Shown piece after piece: positions 19,894 to 41,868 of a stretch of DNA of 64,000 nucleotides. Within the stretch, counting starts at the first letter, position 1. Every line of letters starts with the position of its first letter. Origin of the DNA: Hesseltinella vesiculosa (taxonomy: Eukaryota; Mucoromycota; Mucoromycetes; Mucorales; Cunninghamellaceae); contig MCGT01000041.1 of assembly GCA_002104935.1 (NCBI GenBank), forward strand, positions 69,501 through 133,500, written 5' to 3'. The translations under genes and the position numbers were made by a program. The notes under the pieces are model-generated. The model ran no database searches and was not told the origin of the DNA. It saw only the letters and a list, made by a program, of their open reading frames with translations.

Positions 19894-22082
19894 CTATGCT
19901 GCTGGAGCAGCATAGCCCAGGATGAGCCCATTGGTGGCCAAGTCTTGCTCAGTCAGCACAGATGAAGCTGTGACTGCACCAGAACCAGACACAAAAAAGT
20001 TTCGTACCAAAAGACTTCGTAACCGTTCATGGGAATTACGGCAGCCAGCTAATGAGTGCAGAAAATAAAGTGAGCCAACAGGTCACGGCATTCATTTTCT
20101 TTTCTTTTTTTTTTGTCAGGCTTACCTAGCGATGCACGCTCAAACCAATGGGTAGCGCGTTGGAAGTCAACATCACAGCCGAGGCCATGCTCAAAGCAGT
20201 TGGCCAGATGGAATTGAGCAGCAGTGTGGTTAAGATCGGCGGCACGTTGGAAAAACAAAAAGGCGGTGGCTTCATCCTTGTCGACCCCTAGTCCTTGTTG
20301 GAGATGCATCCCAAGCTTGTCCATGGCACGAGCGTGGTTTTGCTTGCTGGCCTGTTCATACCAATAAACTGCCTGTTGATCATCTTGCGTGATACCGATA
20401 CCACTAGCATAACAAAAACCAAGGTTACACTGAGCCCAGGGGTTGCCTTGCATGGCAGACTTGTGATACCAATGGACAGCTCTGGAGGCATCCTTCTTGA
20501 CACCGAGGCCTTCTTCAAAACAAAATCCCAGAGAGTTTTGCGCCAGCGCATTGCCTTGTTCTGCAGATCGTTTGAACCATTTGACAGCTTCACGTTCGTC
20601 CTTGGTGACCCCGATGCCGTTGCGGTAGCAGTAGCCGAGGGAGAGTTGAGCGGGCGCATGGTTTTCCTCGGCACTCATGTAATACCAAAAGACAGCTTCT
20701 TGATCGTTGATGGTGACACCAATGCCGTTTTGGTAGCAGTAGCCCAAGGAGTGATAAGCAAATATATTGCCACGTTCAGCGGAGCGGCGGTACCATTTGA
20801 CGGCTTCCAGTTCGTCCTTGTCCACGCCAATGCCATTTTGATAGCAGAAGCCCAGGTTGTGTTGTGCGCGAGCATGACCTTGCGAGGCGGCTCGTCGGTA
20901 CCAATGAGCCCCTTGAGCATTGTCCTTGTCTACGCCAATGCCATTTTGATAGCAGTAGCCGAGGTTGCATTGGGCCCAAGGATAACCTTGTTTGGCTGAG
21001 CGTTCGTACCAAAGAGCAGCCAGAGCAAAGTCTTGGGTGATGCCGATGCCGTCTTCGTAGCAGTAGCCAAGTGAGTTTTGTGCAAAGGCATTGCCTTGGT
21101 CAGCTGAGCGCTGGTACCATTTGACCGCTTCTTGCACGTCTTTTTCCACACCAATGCCGTCTTCGTAGCAATAGCCGACGTTGTAGATGGCCACTGTTTC
21201 GTCTTGATCTGCGGCCAAGCGATACCAGCGCATGGCTTCGACTTCGTCCTTGGGCACGCCGTAGCCTTCGCCGTAGCAGTAACCGAGGATGCCTTGGCCA
21301 CGTTCGTTGCCTTGTTCTGCGCTGGCCTTGTACCAAAAAAAGGCAAGCCGTTCGTCCTTGCAGACGCCGATGCCGTCGTGATAGCACACGCCGAGTGCAT
21401 ACTGGCAGGCAGCTTCTTGATAGACCGTAGCGCCCTGCATGATCCATTGGATGGCGGCTGTTTCGCCATGCAGCTGGTTGTAGCGGCGGACTCGTTCGGC
21501 CCATTCTTCGGATTCGGTGCGATCGATCATGACATTCGGTCGGCCGTATTTGCGCAGGAACACCAGGCGAGCCATGCCTAGGCCATCCCACTGTTTGGCA
21601 CTTTCCTGGTAATAGTTTTCGGCCACAATAAAGTCGCGGTCGACACCCATGCCGAATTCGTAGCAAAAGCCAAGGATGCTGGAGGCTTCGGCACAACCGA
21701 GCTCGACGGCTTGTTTCAACAGCGGAATGGCTCTGGTGGGTTGTTGTTTGAGAGGCAGTCGACCAAACAAGTAGCCGTTGGCGGTGTGCAGAAGTTGTTG
21801 GATGGTTTCCGTAGAGCCAGAGCTCTTATCTGCCTGAAGAGAGAAGTCGTCGAGTTGTTGCTTGCAGGCAAAGAGGGAATCATCACTTTCGGATGAAGGG
21901 CGACCAGGGATTGAAAAGGGAGACGAGTGGGGTAAATAAGGGGAAGGATCATTGCTGGTGCTACTGCTGTAGGACGACGACAATGACGTTGAATAGGAGC
22001 TGTGTCGTTTCGTTTGCCATCTGGAAAGCACATGGCGCGATCGTTGGAAAAACTGGGTGAGGTGTATAGAGTTGTGCGTCAT
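19894..22082 (-). CDS. Sel1-like repeat (SLR) protein, 13 repeats
   Basis: Exons 22082..20126 and 20048..19894 join in phase to 703 residues. After ~100 Ser-rich residues the protein is built almost entirely of 36-residue Sel1 repeats. Thirteen loops of the type G-Y-C-Y-x-x-G-I-G-V-x-x-D (for example CYQNGIGVDKD twice) are followed by A-x-x-W-Y-x-x-S-A. Such alpha-solenoids act as scaffolds; yeast relatives Skt5/Chs4 activate chitin synthase and Hrd3 works in ERAD. No signal peptide, membrane span or farnesylation CAAX box is seen, so neither role can be assigned. The tail after the intron (ending YAAPAA) is unrelated to Sel1. Confidence 0.9.
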
Positions 22083-25000
22083 GATTGTCACCAGGGAAAA
22101 AAAAAAAAAAAAAAGAACGGTGGGAGGAGCAGAGAAGAGGAAAATGGGAATGAGTAAAAGAAAGACGGGGTAAGAATAAAGTAAAAGGAATGATAGAAAA
22201 TAAGTGAGGTTGAGCTACAACTAGAGGTATGACCGAGCCCAAGAGTGATGTGATGGATGAAGAGGAAAAAGAAAAAAAAAGTGGAAAAAAGAAGAAGAGC
22301 TGCATGCGGGGACACTTTTTTTTTTTACTAGCGGACAACGAATCCCGCTCGCAGGTGTCCACTAAAAAAAGGAGGGAACAACGCTAATCCTTCCAGCCTC
22401 CTTATTGCCAAGAAAACTGTCAATAAACTAGCCTGTGGCCCAGTTCTAGTCATAACTGCTTTTCCATCCTTGTTTAAAATTAACAGAAAATATAAAGCTC
22501 TTTTTTTCTATTTCGATGCTGCCCCTTGCCCTTTTTTTTATCTTTTATTTATTTATTCCTGGATTTGACTTTCTTTCTTTACCACAGCCCATTGGTCAAG
22601 CGGTAAATGGATCTCGAACAAATAATTTTTTTTTCAGGCACGAAAGTGAAACTTCACCTGACAGATCCGCAAGCTGTAATGAATTAAATGGTGGCATTGG
22701 CCACTTTCCACAGCCTGTGTCACTTTCCCAAAACGTGATTGAACCTGGTGGATCTCTGGATTGACGGGGTTGACGATCACGGAACGGCTGTTTCCCGATA
22801 AACGTCGATGCTAGTTTCAAGAAACAGTTCATGTTGAGTTTACTGACATTGGGTGTTGGGCTGCGAAAGATATGCCAGGAAGCAAGCTGGTCAAGTCTTG
22901 GAAGAGGACCCATTTTTACTGCTGCTTTCGGCAGTCACTATAGCACCTTGGAGGTTGGCAGGCGACATGGTGGCTTTGCAGAGTAGCTTGACAAAGTCAA
23001 AGGCCTTGCACGATGCATCTAGATCCCCCCCCCCAACCGAACAGGTCGCGAGTACAATGGAAGTTAACAGTCCGCCAATGTTTCGGAAATATCTTTGGCT
23101 TCTCCCAGTTTGGTGGTAAGCTCTTGATCATTTTTATCTGTAGTTTGACTGCTTATTCCCTATCTCTTACTGTCACTGCCAACATTGGGTTCGTCATGCT
23201 GGACTCACTTCTCCATCAGGGTCTCAAGGTGCGTGACATGGAGATGTTCCCCGACTATCGGTCACTCTCAGCAAAGTCCCAGGCCCGCAGGGGCAGAACG
23301 CAAAAGTCAAGATGAACAGCCATTCTGCGGTAGAGAATAGGAGACAAGCCCGTCAACAACGTAACCAAATGCCCACCGTCAGTATGTAACGTATCGATTC
23401 CAGCAACGAAAACTTGACGATGATACCAGGGCCCTTTACACGGGCAGGAAGCAATGTTGTGGCTCCCATAGTAACCCCAAATGCCACGCAATCACCCATT
23501 TTTGTGGTTTCAATCCCCGATCAACCATGAATTTGATCCACGGCCCTCACTGGCCAAGGAGTTGCAAAAAACCTCCTACCGGATTTCCGCTTTTATTTAA
23601 GCCGTGAATAATTTTTTTAGTAGGCAACCCAACGGTACAAACTGCTAAATTACTTTCTTGTACGCTCGAAAGTAAAGTCAAGAGCGCGAGAAAGCTAAAT
23701 CAGGTGCGCGCGAAATCATGCGTAGTGCCCGCGAGTCAAATCAAACTGGTTAAAAAAAAAAAAGGAATCGTGCTCCGCATATTAAAGAAGCGCACATAGT
23801 GGCAGATTCAACCAAACTCAAGAAGACCACACGCGTGGAGGAAGATCCTCGACACACTACCGTGAATATCGATACCAATAACCTCCTGATTTCTGGAACT
23901 GACTATGGTATTGTGACAAAGGCCACAACGGTGACGCACACTCTCGAGGACATGGAGAAATTGTAGGCTGGCCAATTCTTCAAGTTACCAAAATCAACAA
24001 AGTCGGTTGCAAAGGATATTGCGTGGAAGACTAGGCAGTTCCAGTTTCAACGGCGACTACAACGTGTAAAGGCAGAAGTAAGAAACGCGCAACTCCTAAC
24101 CACAATGAACTTATTGCTTACTCTTTTTTTTTTTTTTTTTTTTAGATAAGCGCTGGTCGAGAAACATCTCTAACCGAAGCCATCCTCGCGCACAAATCCC
24201 TTGCCTCAGCCATGACTGTCCAGAAACTTAACGGTCCCTTTTCCCAAGCACGCTCCAAAGCATCAAAACTCCTGAATTTTTGCCATCATCCGCAAATCGA
24301 GCGCGAACGTCAACAATTACAATGGCGACAGTCGAACGACTTTGTACAATGCACCATGCTCTGTGAGTGTGAGGCAGCAGCCCCGTCATCAAGACGTGAA
24401 AATTAGGTAAGGATATCATAAAAATAGAGCACAACAACATCTCATTTTTTTTCGTGCTGTGCATCATTGGTGTCCTTCCTTTCTAGAAATTCTTGCAAGT
24501 CCATTCGGTTTCTCTGATTTGCCCATTCATACTGAATTCACCCCAGCTTATGCCATTTTTGATAGTTCGTCTTACGACATCGATTCTTTTGGAATTTGCG
24601 ACTTTTTTGTTTAATTAAAGTGTACAGTATTCAGATTGTGGAAGATTTGGCATCATAGCGAAATCAAGTAGCCAAACTGAAATGACGCCCGAGAAGTAAC
24701 AAAAGTGGATGGTATGCGATTGAGATGGAAATAAATGAAAAAGAGGACCAAAAGGTGAGCGGTTCATTTTCGAGGTCGATTGCGTTGAGGACAGTTCCAA
24801 GTGATATGGCCACCGCCACAAAAGGAGCAAGGCAAGGTGGATGAATTGGTTTGGCAAATTGTACTTTCATGCATTTTTTCTTTATCTTATCTTTGATGGC
24901 CAATGTCAAGTCAAAAAAAAAAGTGCTTTTATATAAAAGTTGGTCCCCAAAAAAAATATTGGAAAAGGCAACGTGAGTAAACAAATACCCCCTTCTAAAA

Positions 25001-30096: not shown

Positions 30097-30464
30097 TTAT
30101 TTCTTGCCGCTCTTCTTGATACCACCGCCCACTAAAAAAAAAAAAAGATGAGTGCTTGGCCAGGCAAAAACAAACGAACTCCTTACAGAGAGGACCCTTG
30201 CCAGAGGCCTTGGCTTGCATTTCTTTCAACTTCTTGGCTTCTTCTTGTTGCTTCTTCTTGAAAGCGATGTCTTCCTATATACAATCAACAAATATGTGAG
30301 CTGGATCTGGACTACGCTTTTTTTTTTCTTTTCTTTTACATCATCCATATCATTCTGCTTCTTTTTGGCAGTCTTGAGAGGCTTAAGTTTACCACCTAAT
30401 AAAAAGCCACGTAAGCGTCCGATGATCAGTTTCCAATGGATGCATTACCTTGACGACCAGACAT
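30097..30464 (-). CDS. TMA7: Translation machinery-associated protein TMA7
   Basis: Four small exons (30464..30449, 30395..30340, 30274..30187, 30131..30097) join in phase to exactly 64 residues, the usual family length. It begins MSGRQGGKLKPLK and ends GGGIKKSGKK, with the coiled, Lys/Glu-rich middle (AFKKKQQEEAKKLKEM) typical of TMA7/CCDC72. The protein associates with ribosomes; its molecular role is not well defined. This gene is a good calibration of the splicing rules in the window because every junction is forced by the conserved sequence. Confidence 0.95.
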
Positions 30465-30972
30465 GTTTAATAAGGAACTGTTGGGAGAAGAAAAAAAAAA
30501 CAGCCCCCAGCTGATTTTTTCCTTTTTTTTTTTTTTTAAATCACAGCAAGCCACCACGTAAGTGTGGCAAAATCTAAGCAAGCCATCACCACCAACACCT
30601 ACTTATCCATCGCATGAACTTTATATCATTGTTATGATGAAATAACAAAAACGGTGCCATGGGCCACATTTGTTTATCATTTCGTTGATTGGTGTGACCC
30701 CAGTATTGGCACAGTTTCCCGAAAACCTTGAAACCGCGTCTCCCTTTTTTTTTTTTTCTCCCTTGTTCTTCTTGCTTTGTGTCATTTCTCGTCTACTGTT
30801 ACTCTCTGGCTCATTATTATAAGCCAAGTCGACTAGTGTAGGTTTATGTATATGTGACTATGGTAAGAATAAAAAAGAATATATGCAATGCAATAATCAG
30901 TAGCCACATCCTCTACCGTTCATTCGTACTGAATGGTGTTTTTTTTTTCATTGCCATGACCTGCAGACAGCC
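30465..30972. promoter_or_regulatory. Divergent upstream region of TMA7 and the PAM2-repeat gene
   Basis: A 508-bp AT-rich interval between the two start codons with T/A runs near 30522 and 30747. No core promoter motif is obvious. The assignment rests on divergent geometry only. Confidence 0.35.
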
Positions 30973-32873
30973 ATGGTTATTAGCAATTCGGCATCAATGC
31001 TTGTTATCCATGCAAAACTGGTGGACATGGTTAGCTCACACCCTCTGCAACTGATAAAAGAGGGCGATCGCATGGCCTACCGACCCAAACTGTCGACACC
31101 TTTGACGCCAGCCACCGGCACACCTGTCCACCCATCCTCTTGGGAGCCACTTCCACGTCACCTTGCAACGCCTCCTTCCGATTCAAATCAATATGTGTTA
31201 CCAGATGCCGCCATCTCCGACAGTCACCCCAAAATCAATCATTCCCTGCCCTTCAGTCCTCCCAGCCCATCTCAGTCAGACACACCTGCCTTGTCCGTTG
31301 ATTCACCTGTCTTTGTACCAGCCTCCAAACGTTCATCCCCCGTCACCCCAGCCATCAACCCCCACGCCCCTGTTTTTGTCCCATTCACAGCCCGAGCGCG
31401 AGTCCCTCTCTTTGTCCCTGAGAGACTGACAGAGTCTTCCCCCGTCACCCCAGCCATCAACCCCCACGCCTCTGTTTTTGTCCCATTCACAGCCCGAGCG
31501 CGAGTCCCTCTCTTTGTCCCTGCGAGACTGACAGAGTCTTCCCCCGTCACCCCAGCCATCAACCCCCACGCCCTGTTTTTGTCCCATTCACAACCCGAGC
31601 GCGAGTCCCACTCTTTGTCCCTGCGAGACTGACAGTGTCTTCCCCCACACCTACCAACGCCAATCATGTCAAAGCAAGCATCCTGGTCGATGCCGATTGC
31701 ATACCAGAGCCACTTTCGCCCTCCCTGACCGACCCTCCCGACTCTTGCTCCAATTCCTCATCTTCCATTGACCAGCAAACTTCTCGCTCCTCGATCAACG
31801 TCCACGCAGCCCCATACGTTCCTGTTGCCTCCGTCGATTCTCCTCCAGCACCTTCACCCACCAAAGTCGAAAATAGCTCATTCAACCCAAAAGCCACCCC
31901 CTTTGTGTTTCTTGGTGCGAAGCAGGAGACATCGTCCTCATCTTCCATTGACCAGCAAACTTCTCGCTCCTCGATCAACGTCCACGCAGCCCCATACGTT
32001 CCTTTTGTCTCCGTCGATTCTCCTCCAGCACCTTCACCCACCAAAGTCGCAAATAGCTCATTCAACCCAAAAGCCACCCCCTTTGTGTTTCTTGGTGCGG
32101 AGCAGGAGACATCGTCCTCATCTTCCATTGACCAGCAAACTTCTCGCTCCTCGACCAACGTCCACGCAGCTCCATACGTTCCTGTTGTCTCCGTCGATTC
32201 TCCTCCAGCACCTTCACCCACCAAAGTCGCAAATAGCTCATTCAACCCAAAAGCCACCCCATTTATGTTTCTTGGTGCGAAGCAGGAAACCTCAACCCGA
32301 GAGGAGGGCAAGGCGCCGTTGGTCAACGCCGATGATGAACAGGGGGATCCATCACCTGCTTTCAAATTCAGTACCCATGCAGCTTCATTTTTACCCAGCA
32401 CCATACTCTCCACAACCCAACCACCTGCCCTTGTTGATGTTTTCAATAACGTAGCTACGGCACCATTGATCGGCATTGACAACAATCAATCAAGCCATCA
32501 CCTGCCTTTGACATCGCCCACTGCCACCCATTCTTTCCAGATCGACAACGACCGCGCAGAGTTTGTCCCTGAGTCCTCGGTATCGTCGGCTTTGTCTATG
32601 ATTCCCAGCGATACCGACCTCTATGAACCAAGTCTGCCCTCATTCATATCTTTGCCGACTCCCACAAGAATCAAGATTGTCGCACCAGCCTCGGACAGTT
32701 CAACGGATGGCTGTGCAACACCGACGCCTTCACCTTTCGTACTCAAACCCGACTGTCCTCCCTTTATCCCAATGCCACAGGAACTCTCCCAAGAATCATA
32801 CGATAACCCGGTCGAGATCACCCACGGTTCCCTTGAATCAATTCATACCCCTCCCTCCAGTTATTTTTTCTAA
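30973..32873 (+). CDS. Pro/Ser-rich protein with many PAM2-like motifs (one frameshift)
   Basis: Two abutting frames (30973..31572 and about 31573..32873) make one ~633-residue protein if a single missing base is allowed at about 31571-31573; the repeat register proves the join. The sequence is low-complexity but punctuated by short blocks of the pattern [LIF]-N-x-x-A-x-x-[FY]-x-P. Examples are INPHAPVFVP, INPHASVFVP, INVHAAPYVP (three close copies), FNPKATPFVF (three copies), FSTHAASFLP and LKPDCPPFIP. That is the PAM2 consensus that binds the MLLE domain of poly(A)-binding protein. A role in mRNP or PABP regulation is inferred. No globular domain, signal peptide or TM is seen. An alternative 3' exon (about 32890-33095) is possible. 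Whether the frameshift is biological or a sequencing error is unknown. Confidence 0.6.
31336..31641 (+). repeat. Three tandem 102-bp coding repeats
   Basis: Three near-identical 102-bp units (34 codons) start near 31336, 31438 and 31540. Each encodes SSPVTPAINPHA-x-VFVPF followed by an RARVPLFVP block. The third unit lacks one C and so shifts frame. Spacing is exact, indicating recent unequal crossover or slippage. Confidence 0.9.
31753..32295 (+). repeat. Three tandem 180-bp coding repeats
   Basis: Three 180-bp units (60 codons) begin near 31753, 31933 and 32113 and differ at only a few bases. Each unit carries two PAM2-like blocks, INVHAAPYVP and FNPKATPFVF, separated by a Ser/Pro linker. 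Substitutions are scattered and keep the motif residues. Confidence 0.9.
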
Positions 32874-40168: not shown

Positions 40169-41868
40169 ATGTCTCTTCAACCGCTAAGGTAATGGATGAA
40201 TAAGGATACCATGAAAGAGAATGAAGAAAGCAAAAAAAAAAAAGAAAAAACCAGGGTTTGGACAATGAAGAGTAGAATACTCATCTCTGCTTTTTCTTTT
40301 ATTCAATGATATTAGCCACGAACACGATGACTGGAAAAAAACACTTGCGCTACCACCCAAAGATACTCGCCCTCAAACAGAGGATGTGACTGCCACCAAG
40401 GGCAATGAATTCGAAGATTACTTTTTGAAACGAGAACTGCTGATGGGGATCTTTGAAGCTGGTTTTGAACGGCCCTCACCTATTCAAGAAGAAGCCATTC
40501 CTATTGCCTTGACTGGTCGCGATATCCTTGCTCGTGCCAAGAACGGCACGGGTAAGACCGCTGCCTTTGTCATCCCCACCTTGGAAAAGATCAACAACAA
40601 GAAATCCAAGGTCCAGGCTCTCATCCTCGTCCCCACCCGTGAATTGGCTTTGCAAACCTCGCAAGTATGCAAGACCTTGGGTAAACACTTGGGTATCCAA
40701 ATCATGGTCACCACCGGTGGTACCACTCTCAAGGACGATATCATGCGTTTGGCTGAAACCGTGCATGTTGTGGTTGGCACCCCAGGCCGTATTCTTGACT
40801 TGGCCTCTAAGGGTGTTGCCGACTTTAGCGAAGCCTCCACCTTTGTGATGGATGAAGCTGACAAGCTCTTGTCGCCTGAATTCACCCCCATCATCGACCA
40901 GCTCATCTCCTTCTTCCCCAAGGATCGCCAAATCATGCTGTTCAGTGCCACCTTTCCCATGATCGTCAAGACGTTCAAGGACAAGTACTTGGTCAAGCCC
41001 TATGAAATCAACTTGATGGATGAGCTGACCTTGCGCGGTGTCACCCAATACTATGCCTTTGTAGAAGAAAAGCAAAAGGTGCACTGTCTCAACACCCTGT
41101 TCTCAAAGCTGCAAATCAATCAATCCATCATCTTTTGTAATTCCACCAACCGTGTCGAATTGTTAGCCAAGAAGATTACCGAACTGGGTTACTCTTGTTT
41201 TTACTCGCATGCCAAGATGCTGCAAAGCCATCGTAACCGCGTGTTCCATGATTTCCGAAATGGCGTCTGTCGTAACTTGGTCTGCTCCGGTAAGCCTGTC
41301 CTCGCCCTCACACCCATCCCGACACTCACTCTCTTCCTTAAAAGATCTGCTGACTCGTGGCATCGACATCCAAGCCGTCAATGTGGTCATCAACTTTGAT
41401 TTCCCCAAGAATGCTGAAACTTACTTGCATCGTATTGGTCGTTCCGGCCGTTTCGGTCATCTGGGTCTCGCCATCAACTTGATCACCTATGAGGACCGAT
41501 TCAACCTGTACAAGATTGAACGCGAACTTGGTACCGAGATCCAACCCATTCCTCCCAGCATCGATCGTCAACTGTACGTTGCTCCCAACGCCTTGGACGA
41601 TGCCCAAGTCCAGCAGCCCAACCGCGAAGCTGCCATTGCCACCCGTCAGCAACAGCAACAGCGTGAAGCCCGTGACCAAACCTCTCAACAAATTCCCCAA
41701 CACCAATCACAGCAACAGCAGCAGCAACACCAACAACACCATTATCACTATCATGATCAGTCCAACGGCCGTGGACGAGGTGGCTACCGTGGTCGTGGCG
41801 GATATCGTGGTCGTGGTGGCCCAAGACAACAACAACAACAACAACAACGTCCTCGACCCTTGCCTTGA
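40169..41868 (+). CDS. DHH1: DEAD-box RNA helicase Dhh1/DDX6
   Basis: Exons 40169..40188, 40316..41289 and 41345..41868 join in phase to 505 residues. All helicase motifs are intact: Q motif [13 protein letters not shown], Walker [25 protein letters not shown] in [13 protein letters not shown] in FSATFP, then RGIDIQAVN and [30 protein letters not shown] is diagnostic of Dhh1/DDX6 rather than eIF4A or Ded1. The protein promotes decapping and translational repression and assembles P-bodies. The C-terminal extension is Gln/His-rich and then carries RGG-type repeats ([16 protein letters not shown]), both favouring condensation and RNA binding. A short first exon of six codons is a plausible regulatory splice. 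Confidence 0.97.

Follow-up and report, generated by a model that had tools for sequence, protein, structure and literature searches.

A tandem-repeat gene of Hesseltinella vesiculosa with a cluster of PAM2-like motifs: a candidate multivalent ligand of poly(A)-binding protein

A gene on the plus strand of Hesseltinella vesiculosa (Mucorales, Cunninghamellaceae) carries a cluster of PAM2-like motifs that exceeds chance expectation, and the same genome encodes a canonical MLLE domain. The gene lies in a 64,000-nucleotide stretch of DNA (the window; G000:C36:69501-133500) of a genome of 27.05 Mb in 85 contigs, and its deposited product is "hypothetical protein DM01DRAFT_1339909 [Hesseltinella vesiculosa]", a protein of 617 aa without Pfam domains. 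We give roughly even chances to the proposal that it encodes a low-complexity chain of PAM2-type motifs, a candidate multivalent ligand of the MLLE domain of the poly(A)-binding protein (PABP) encoded by the same fungus. The best reading of the protein is a lineage-specific multivalent PABP ligand, for which we infer binding, disorder, multivalency within one chain and an effect.

Blocks were scored at five fixed positions of [LIF]NxxAxx[FY]xP, with L, I, F, M or V allowed at the first position and an aromatic residue required at the Phe position; the published PAM2 core reads xxLNxxAxEFxP in the motif description of PMC9249222. The hydrophobic-N-x-x-A-x-x-F-x-P core of PAM2 (PF07145) is present in the protein when Y is allowed for F. 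The two open reading frames that cover the gene, ORF A and ORF B, together contain 4 blocks that fit at all five positions, 5 that fit at four and 4 that fit at three. Full fits are INPHAPVFVP (31354..31383), INPHASVFVP (31456..31485) and two copies of INVHAAPYVP (31794..31823 and 31974..32003). Among the blocks with four positions, FNPKATPFVF (31881..31910 and 32061..32090) and FNPKATPFMF (32241..32270) have the final Pro replaced, TNVHAAPYVP (32154..32183) has lost the first hydrophobic position, and FSTHAASFLP (32367..32396) lies outside the repeat arrays. The weak blocks, with three positions, are LSVDSPVFVP (31291..31320), IDNDRAEFVP (32541..32570), IPSDTDLYEP (32601..32630) and LKPDCPPFIP (32742..32771); all blocks are on the plus strand. 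The original prediction counted at least ten blocks that fit the pattern. Nine reach at least four of the five positions, and a frame break splits what would be the tenth, in unit 3 of the 34-aa array, but only four are strict. Of these nine, eight fall within two tandem arrays, three end in F rather than P and three carry Y for the key F. In the deposited chain, taken unaltered, there are likewise 9 blocks at four or more positions (3 strict), spaced by 34, 97, 29, 31, 29, 31, 29 and 42 residues.

Both tandem arrays had been described as exact, 3 x 34 aa and 3 x 60 aa; the arrays are present but near-exact, with 96-97% matches by TRF. The first comprises three 34-aa units at 31336..31640 on the plus strand, which measure 102, 102 and 101 bp, so that the third is one base short (TRF: 3.1 copies x 102 bp, 31336-31646, 96% matches, 1% indels). 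The second comprises three 60-aa units of 180 bp each at 31755..32294, plus strand, with two PAM2-like blocks per unit (TRF: 3.0 copies x 180 bp, 31755-32287, 97% matches). Pairwise ratios of silent to amino-acid-changing codon differences are 0:4, 5:4 and 5:4 among the 60-aa units and 0:2 and 1:3 among the 34-aa units, the last ratio being for the parts after the frame break. A hand count gives 16 distinct codon differences between copies, of which 10 are amino-acid-changing; 3 of the 10 lie in motif cores, which account for 30 of the 94 unit residues, and one of the three, I to T at 32154, is at an anchor position. The copies thus show no sign of motif protection, but the changes are too few for the comparison to inform on selection, and constraint is neither supported nor excluded.

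Because repeat copies are dependent, each array was collapsed to one unit before the blocks were compared with chance, which left 153 + 121 + 192 = 466 residues in pieces that were kept apart. This collapsed sequence contains 4 blocks at four or more positions, two of them strict. Shuffles of single residues ("mono") contain a mean of 0.148 such blocks, and shuffles that preserve dipeptides a mean of 0.233; a count of 4 was reached in 0 of 20,000 and 0 of 5,000 shuffles, respectively. When three positions suffice, the 8 blocks observed are reached in 10 of 20,000 mono shuffles and 13 of 5,000 dipeptide-preserving shuffles. The reversed sequence contains 3, 1 and 0 blocks at three, four and five positions. 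As a background from the same genome we used 771 stop-to-stop ORFs of at least 100 aa (127,182 residues), taken in six frames so that many are not genes, from the window outside this locus and from 26 further stretches, 6 of which had been picked earlier for MLLE or PAM2 matches. Blocks at four or more positions number 24 in these ORFs, with a maximum of one per ORF and none strict; the 67 ORFs with P+S+T+A of at least 40% after rounding account for 2. At the background rate, the Poisson probability of at least 4 matches in 466 residues is 2.3e-6. The blocks therefore exceed both the shuffled Pro/Ser-rich sequence against which the original prediction asked that they be judged and the ORFs of the same genome, and the motif cluster is real, PAM2-like and beyond chance.

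Profile searches lead to the PAM2 motifs of eRF3/GSPT1. A profile built from 12 blocks over 18 columns was searched against 177,635 PDB sequences and found two matches at E<=10, 2rqh_A (E 0.018) and 5lzt_jj (E 0.97), both of which are eRF3/GSPT1 PAM2; the alignments lie on NVHAAEFVP in both chains and, in 5lzt_jj, also on LNVNAKPFVP. A second profile, made from 35-aa pieces, found the same two PDB chains only (E 0.1 and 7.8). Because the blocks of the first profile were picked by pattern (9 of the 12 for a core fit of at least 4/5 and 3 for a fit of 3/5), its result is only partly independent and mainly tests the columns outside the core. Single units did not find eRF3: phmmer returned no eRF3 or PAM2 chain with the 34-aa unit, which matched cadherin-1 at E 2.1, or with the 60-aa unit, whose match was to a sperm microtubule protein (E 7.1).

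A scan of 12 block pieces against Pfam found PAM2 in 2 of them and no other family, the best match having E 0.028 and 14.6 bits; the gathering cut-off for PAM2 (PF07145), 20 bits, was reached by no block piece. In a separate set of 10 pieces, one of which spans the broken unit, PAM2 was again found in 2, with INPHAPVFVP at E 0.028 (14.6 bits) and INPHASVFVP at E 0.055 (13.6 bits). Control pieces rich in P, S, T and A (at least 40%, unrounded) matched PAM2 in 0 of 61 cases and three other families in one piece each. The whole ORFs A and B gave no PAM2 match at E<=10. The PAM2/PABP reading is partly supported: the blocks beat shuffled sequence and their profile finds eRF3, but the Pfam scores stay below the cut-off and single units miss eRF3. 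A sub-threshold match of ORF B to SH3_retrovirus (E 0.0011, 19.3 bits, cut-off 27), in which no single stretch passes, was taken as chance. Across the genome, PF07145 matches three places, all below the cut-off and none at this locus. The best of them (C1:120842-120886, 18.8 bits) adjoins a RasGEF-coding ORF; the ORF with the match contains repeated W-x-G-Y motifs and is possibly part of one gene with the RasGEF ORF.

The interval 30973-32873 had been proposed to encode a single chain. Because the third unit of the first array is one base short, that chain spans two frames. ORF A (30973..31632, plus strand) encodes the N-terminal part, starts at the Met of the deposited model and contains two intact PAM2-like blocks and one weaker block before the frame is lost within the third 34-aa unit and a stop follows at 31632. 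ORF B (31422-32873, plus strand; coding frame after the break 31572..32873) encodes the 60-aa repeats and the C-terminal part, and it is open to 32873, 433 codons beyond the break. The break falls in a C run (31571..31573, plus strand) that reads CCC in the third unit versus CCCC in unit 1. The deposited 617-aa model joins ORF A to ORF B through a 47-nt intron (31480..31526, plus strand, GTCCCA...TGCGAG). This intron is doubtful and is probably a gene predictor's patch over the frame break, because it is confined to repeat unit 2, has splice sites that look poor by eye and puts the start of unit 3 in a different reading frame from units 1 and 2.

Codon usage ranks the frame of ORF A best of six ahead of the break (-0.372 bits per codon; runner-up, -0.626) and the frame of ORF B best after it (31575-32870; -0.352 bits per codon; runner-up, -0.621). 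The training set consisted of two exons, including a stretch upstream of biotin carboxylase homology that is maybe non-coding, and because all six frames score below zero the values rank frames without proving coding. Because each frame is favoured on its own side of the break, ORF A and ORF B look like one coding sequence, former or present. Coding in another frame or on the minus strand was rejected, since those frames, which on the minus strand include ORFs with lengths of 161 and 273 aa, have lower codon-usage scores. Programmed frameshifting was considered and set aside, for no canonical slippery heptamer was seen by eye in the needed frame. The data fit an assembly error, a genuine one-base loss and a genuine intron alike, and an assembly error in the C run is an ordinary alternative to a real frame break; the portion of PMC8298701 that lists H. 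vesiculosa among its species does not give the sequencing platform. If the break is real, the chain may end after two intact blocks, which makes the number of motifs per chain uncertain. Upstream, inspection of the sequence suggests a possible leader intron (30863..30966, plus strand, ATG/GTAAGA...CTGCAG/ACA), absent from the deposited model, that would add three in-frame residues ahead of the deposited start.

At the sensitivity of our searches the repeat protein is an orphan. Among about 5.8 billion proteins, the 434-aa part of ORF B found only itself at E<=1, with the 7,987 candidates that share most words scored, and deposited residues 420-617 and 1-125 found nothing but the protein itself at E<=10; being word-prefiltered, these searches reach only relatives with shared exact words. 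In a search of its own genome the protein returns five overlapping rows at its own locus and a weak match on C27 (E 0.025). The latter is a Ser/Asp-rich low-complexity stretch and was rejected as a paralogue.

Candidate receptors were sought with PF00658 (MLLE), for which the genome gives three matches. The gene on C85 codes for a PABP (best PDB match 6r5k, E 1.7e-120; MLLE E 3.9e-29) whose MLLE, aligned to human PABPC1, retains KITGMLLE. With numbering mapped on this alignment, and out of 18 contact residues given in the structural account of PMC2854688, it keeps 16 (Gln560, Gly563, Glu564, Gly579, Lys580, Thr582, Met584, Leu585, Leu586, Glu587, Lys606, Glu609, Ala610, Val613, Leu614 and His617), the two changes being Phe567 to Tyr and Ile588 to Met. 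C26 (G000:C26:38500-47000) holds another PABP-like gene, one exon of which codes for a canonical MLLE with KITGMLLE, matched over MLLE positions 23-66; its best PDB matches are PABP MLLE structures (E 9e-11), and RRMs were seen by eye. C78 (G000:C78:383500-393400) encodes an Rrm4-type protein with an RRM (one tested) and a C-terminal MLLE whose best match is Ustilago Rrm4 (E 1.9e-12, versus 2.3e-5 for PABP). A region upstream of this MLLE matches the Rrm4 structure 7pze (E 4.2e-9) and has no Pfam MLLE match. Rrm4-type proteins are reported in Mucoromycota in passages of PMC9249222 and PMC12852828, which also describe Rrm4 MLLE3 as preferring FxxP PAM2L, with its acidic stretch and tyrosine, and as not binding PAM2. 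Because the blocks are of the FxP kind while Rrm4 MLLE3 prefers FxxP PAM2L, PABP is the likelier partner.

Among known systems, the blocks resemble PAM2-N and PAM2-C of eRF3/GSPT1, the sole PDB sequences found by the block profiles, in their NVHAAxFVP-like core and A-x-x-F-x-P spacing. The account of eRF3 in PMC2854688 has one overlapping PAM2 pair before the GTPase, whereas the H. vesiculosa protein has about nine blocks that stand apart from one another, and Pfam finds no domain in it. Upa2 of Ustilago maydis is similar in that several PAM2 motifs (here, motif matches by sequence) occur in one fungal protein, and the genome here likewise has a PABP and an Rrm4-type protein. Compared by description only, as given in the Upa2 passages of PMC9249222, Upa2 forms dimers and carries four PAM2 motifs as well as a C-terminal GWW motif; the H. 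vesiculosa protein, unlike it, has about nine blocks, no Pfam domain and no GWW, its one Trp being in the N-terminal part. For its lack of GWW, an Upa2 orthologue was rejected as a reading. PAM2L of Upa1 belongs to the same class of short MLLE-binding motifs, but the description in PMC9249222 gives it FxxP spacing and an acidic stretch, whereas all 9 blocks at four or more positions have FxP, YxP or FxF (acidity judged by eye); a PAM2L-type or Rrm4 ligand was rejected as the main reading for this wrong spacing. The multivalency had also been called unusual. With its four PAM2 motifs (PMC9249222, same passages), Upa2 is a precedent that makes it less singular than implied; papers on proteins in which PAM2 motifs number five or above were not apparent among those listed by searches of an open-licence library.

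As a first alternative, the locus could be a decaying or spurious ORF, an orphan rich in repeats and evolving fast, in which repeat slippage has multiplied an ancestral motif or two. The frame break in unit 3 would then be real, and the product would be at most a short chain that carries two or three motifs and lacks any multivalent function. The one-base-short unit 3 leads the frame to the stop at 31632, no relative appears at E<=1 or 10 in the word-prefiltered searches, and the copies are 96-97% alike, which argues for recent expansion, with most of their distinct codon differences changing the amino acid. We nevertheless hold decay to be less likely than not: ORF B stays open for 433 codons past the break with the best codon usage of six frames, the blocks at 31291 and 32367 are outside the arrays in different surroundings and so are not recent copies, and an assembly error in the C run is an ordinary explanation of the break. 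A second alternative, which we take seriously although we would not give it even chances, is a genuine PAM2-type ligand of low valency, in which one or two blocks of the 34-aa units bind, the rest are weak and copy number is neutral. Pfam PAM2 matches only pieces with 34-aa blocks (2 of 10 and 2 of 12). With all four PAM2 motifs of Upa2 mutated, MLLE binding was abolished and endosomal transport retained, so that the motifs are dispensable for transport in the experiments described in PMC9249222, and in the tethering assay reported in PMC5118804 two or four tandem PAM2 copies were no more effective than one. These two reports temper the multivalency idea. Against this alternative, INVHAAPYVP of the 60-aa units shares 7 of 9 residues with eRF3 PAM2-C (NVHAAEFVP), compared with 6 of 9 for INPHAPVFVP of the 34-aa units.

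The Rrm4-type protein on C78, with its two Rrm4 matches (E 1.9e-12 and E 4.2e-9), raises the further alternative of a ligand for an Rrm4-type MLLE protein in endosomal mRNA transport, like Upa1 and Upa2. We consider this very improbable: Rrm4 MLLE3 takes FxxP PAM2L and not PAM2 in the passages cited above, none of the nine blocks has that spacing, and a single Trp leaves no GWW motif.

If the protein is a multivalent PABP ligand, its mode of action can be sketched. P, S, T and A make up 46-48% of ORFs A and B; the chain is presumably disordered, and its 33 S/T-P sites could accept phosphate. Each block would dock into one C-terminal MLLE domain of the PABP made by the same fungus, and about nine blocks, mostly 29-42 residues apart, could hold several PABPs per chain. 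PABPs coat poly(A) in series. Given this arrangement and blocks about 30 residues apart, the PABPs held could be adjacent on a single poly(A) tail or belong to different mRNAs, whose tails would then be joined. The chain would compete with other PAM2 proteins for MLLE, of which eRF3 is the best studied (elsewhere), and would cluster poly(A) mRNPs. A bolder version, in which recent repeat expansion produced a lineage-specific multivalent PABP scaffold whose PAM2 motifs, about nine, are over twice as many as Upa2's four, and this scaffold cross-links poly(A) tails by way of the MLLE domains of PABP and seeds or tunes mRNP condensates, is speculative, and we would bet against it. Should several blocks bind MLLE together, the protein would be a natural test, outside animals and Ustilago, of whether the valency of a PABP ligand in itself organises poly(A) mRNPs, and it would illustrate a multivalent scaffold arising fast through tandem duplication of a motif-bearing 34- or 60-residue unit. 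If the frame break is real, the locus would instead be a case of such a gene being lost.

The repeat gene is flanked by minus-strand ORFs, a biotin-carboxylase-like ORF on the left (CPSase_L_D2, E 4.6e-76) and an amino-acid transporter ORF on the right (Aa_trans, E 9.9e-20), with a small gene between the former and the repeat gene. At about 30100-30470 of the window, minus strand, lies a small intron-bearing gene, pieces of which we take to resemble TMA7 (translation machinery-associated protein 7). Tandem repeats occur elsewhere in the window as well. A Sel1-repeat protein is encoded on the minus strand at 20052-22214 (12 stretches, E 3.7e-139), and its 36-residue unit agrees with a 108-bp tandem repeat at 20814-21068. 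At 41769-41820 there are 2.9 copies of an 18-bp tandem repeat, CCGTGGTCGTGGTGGCTA, that may code for an RG-rich stretch.
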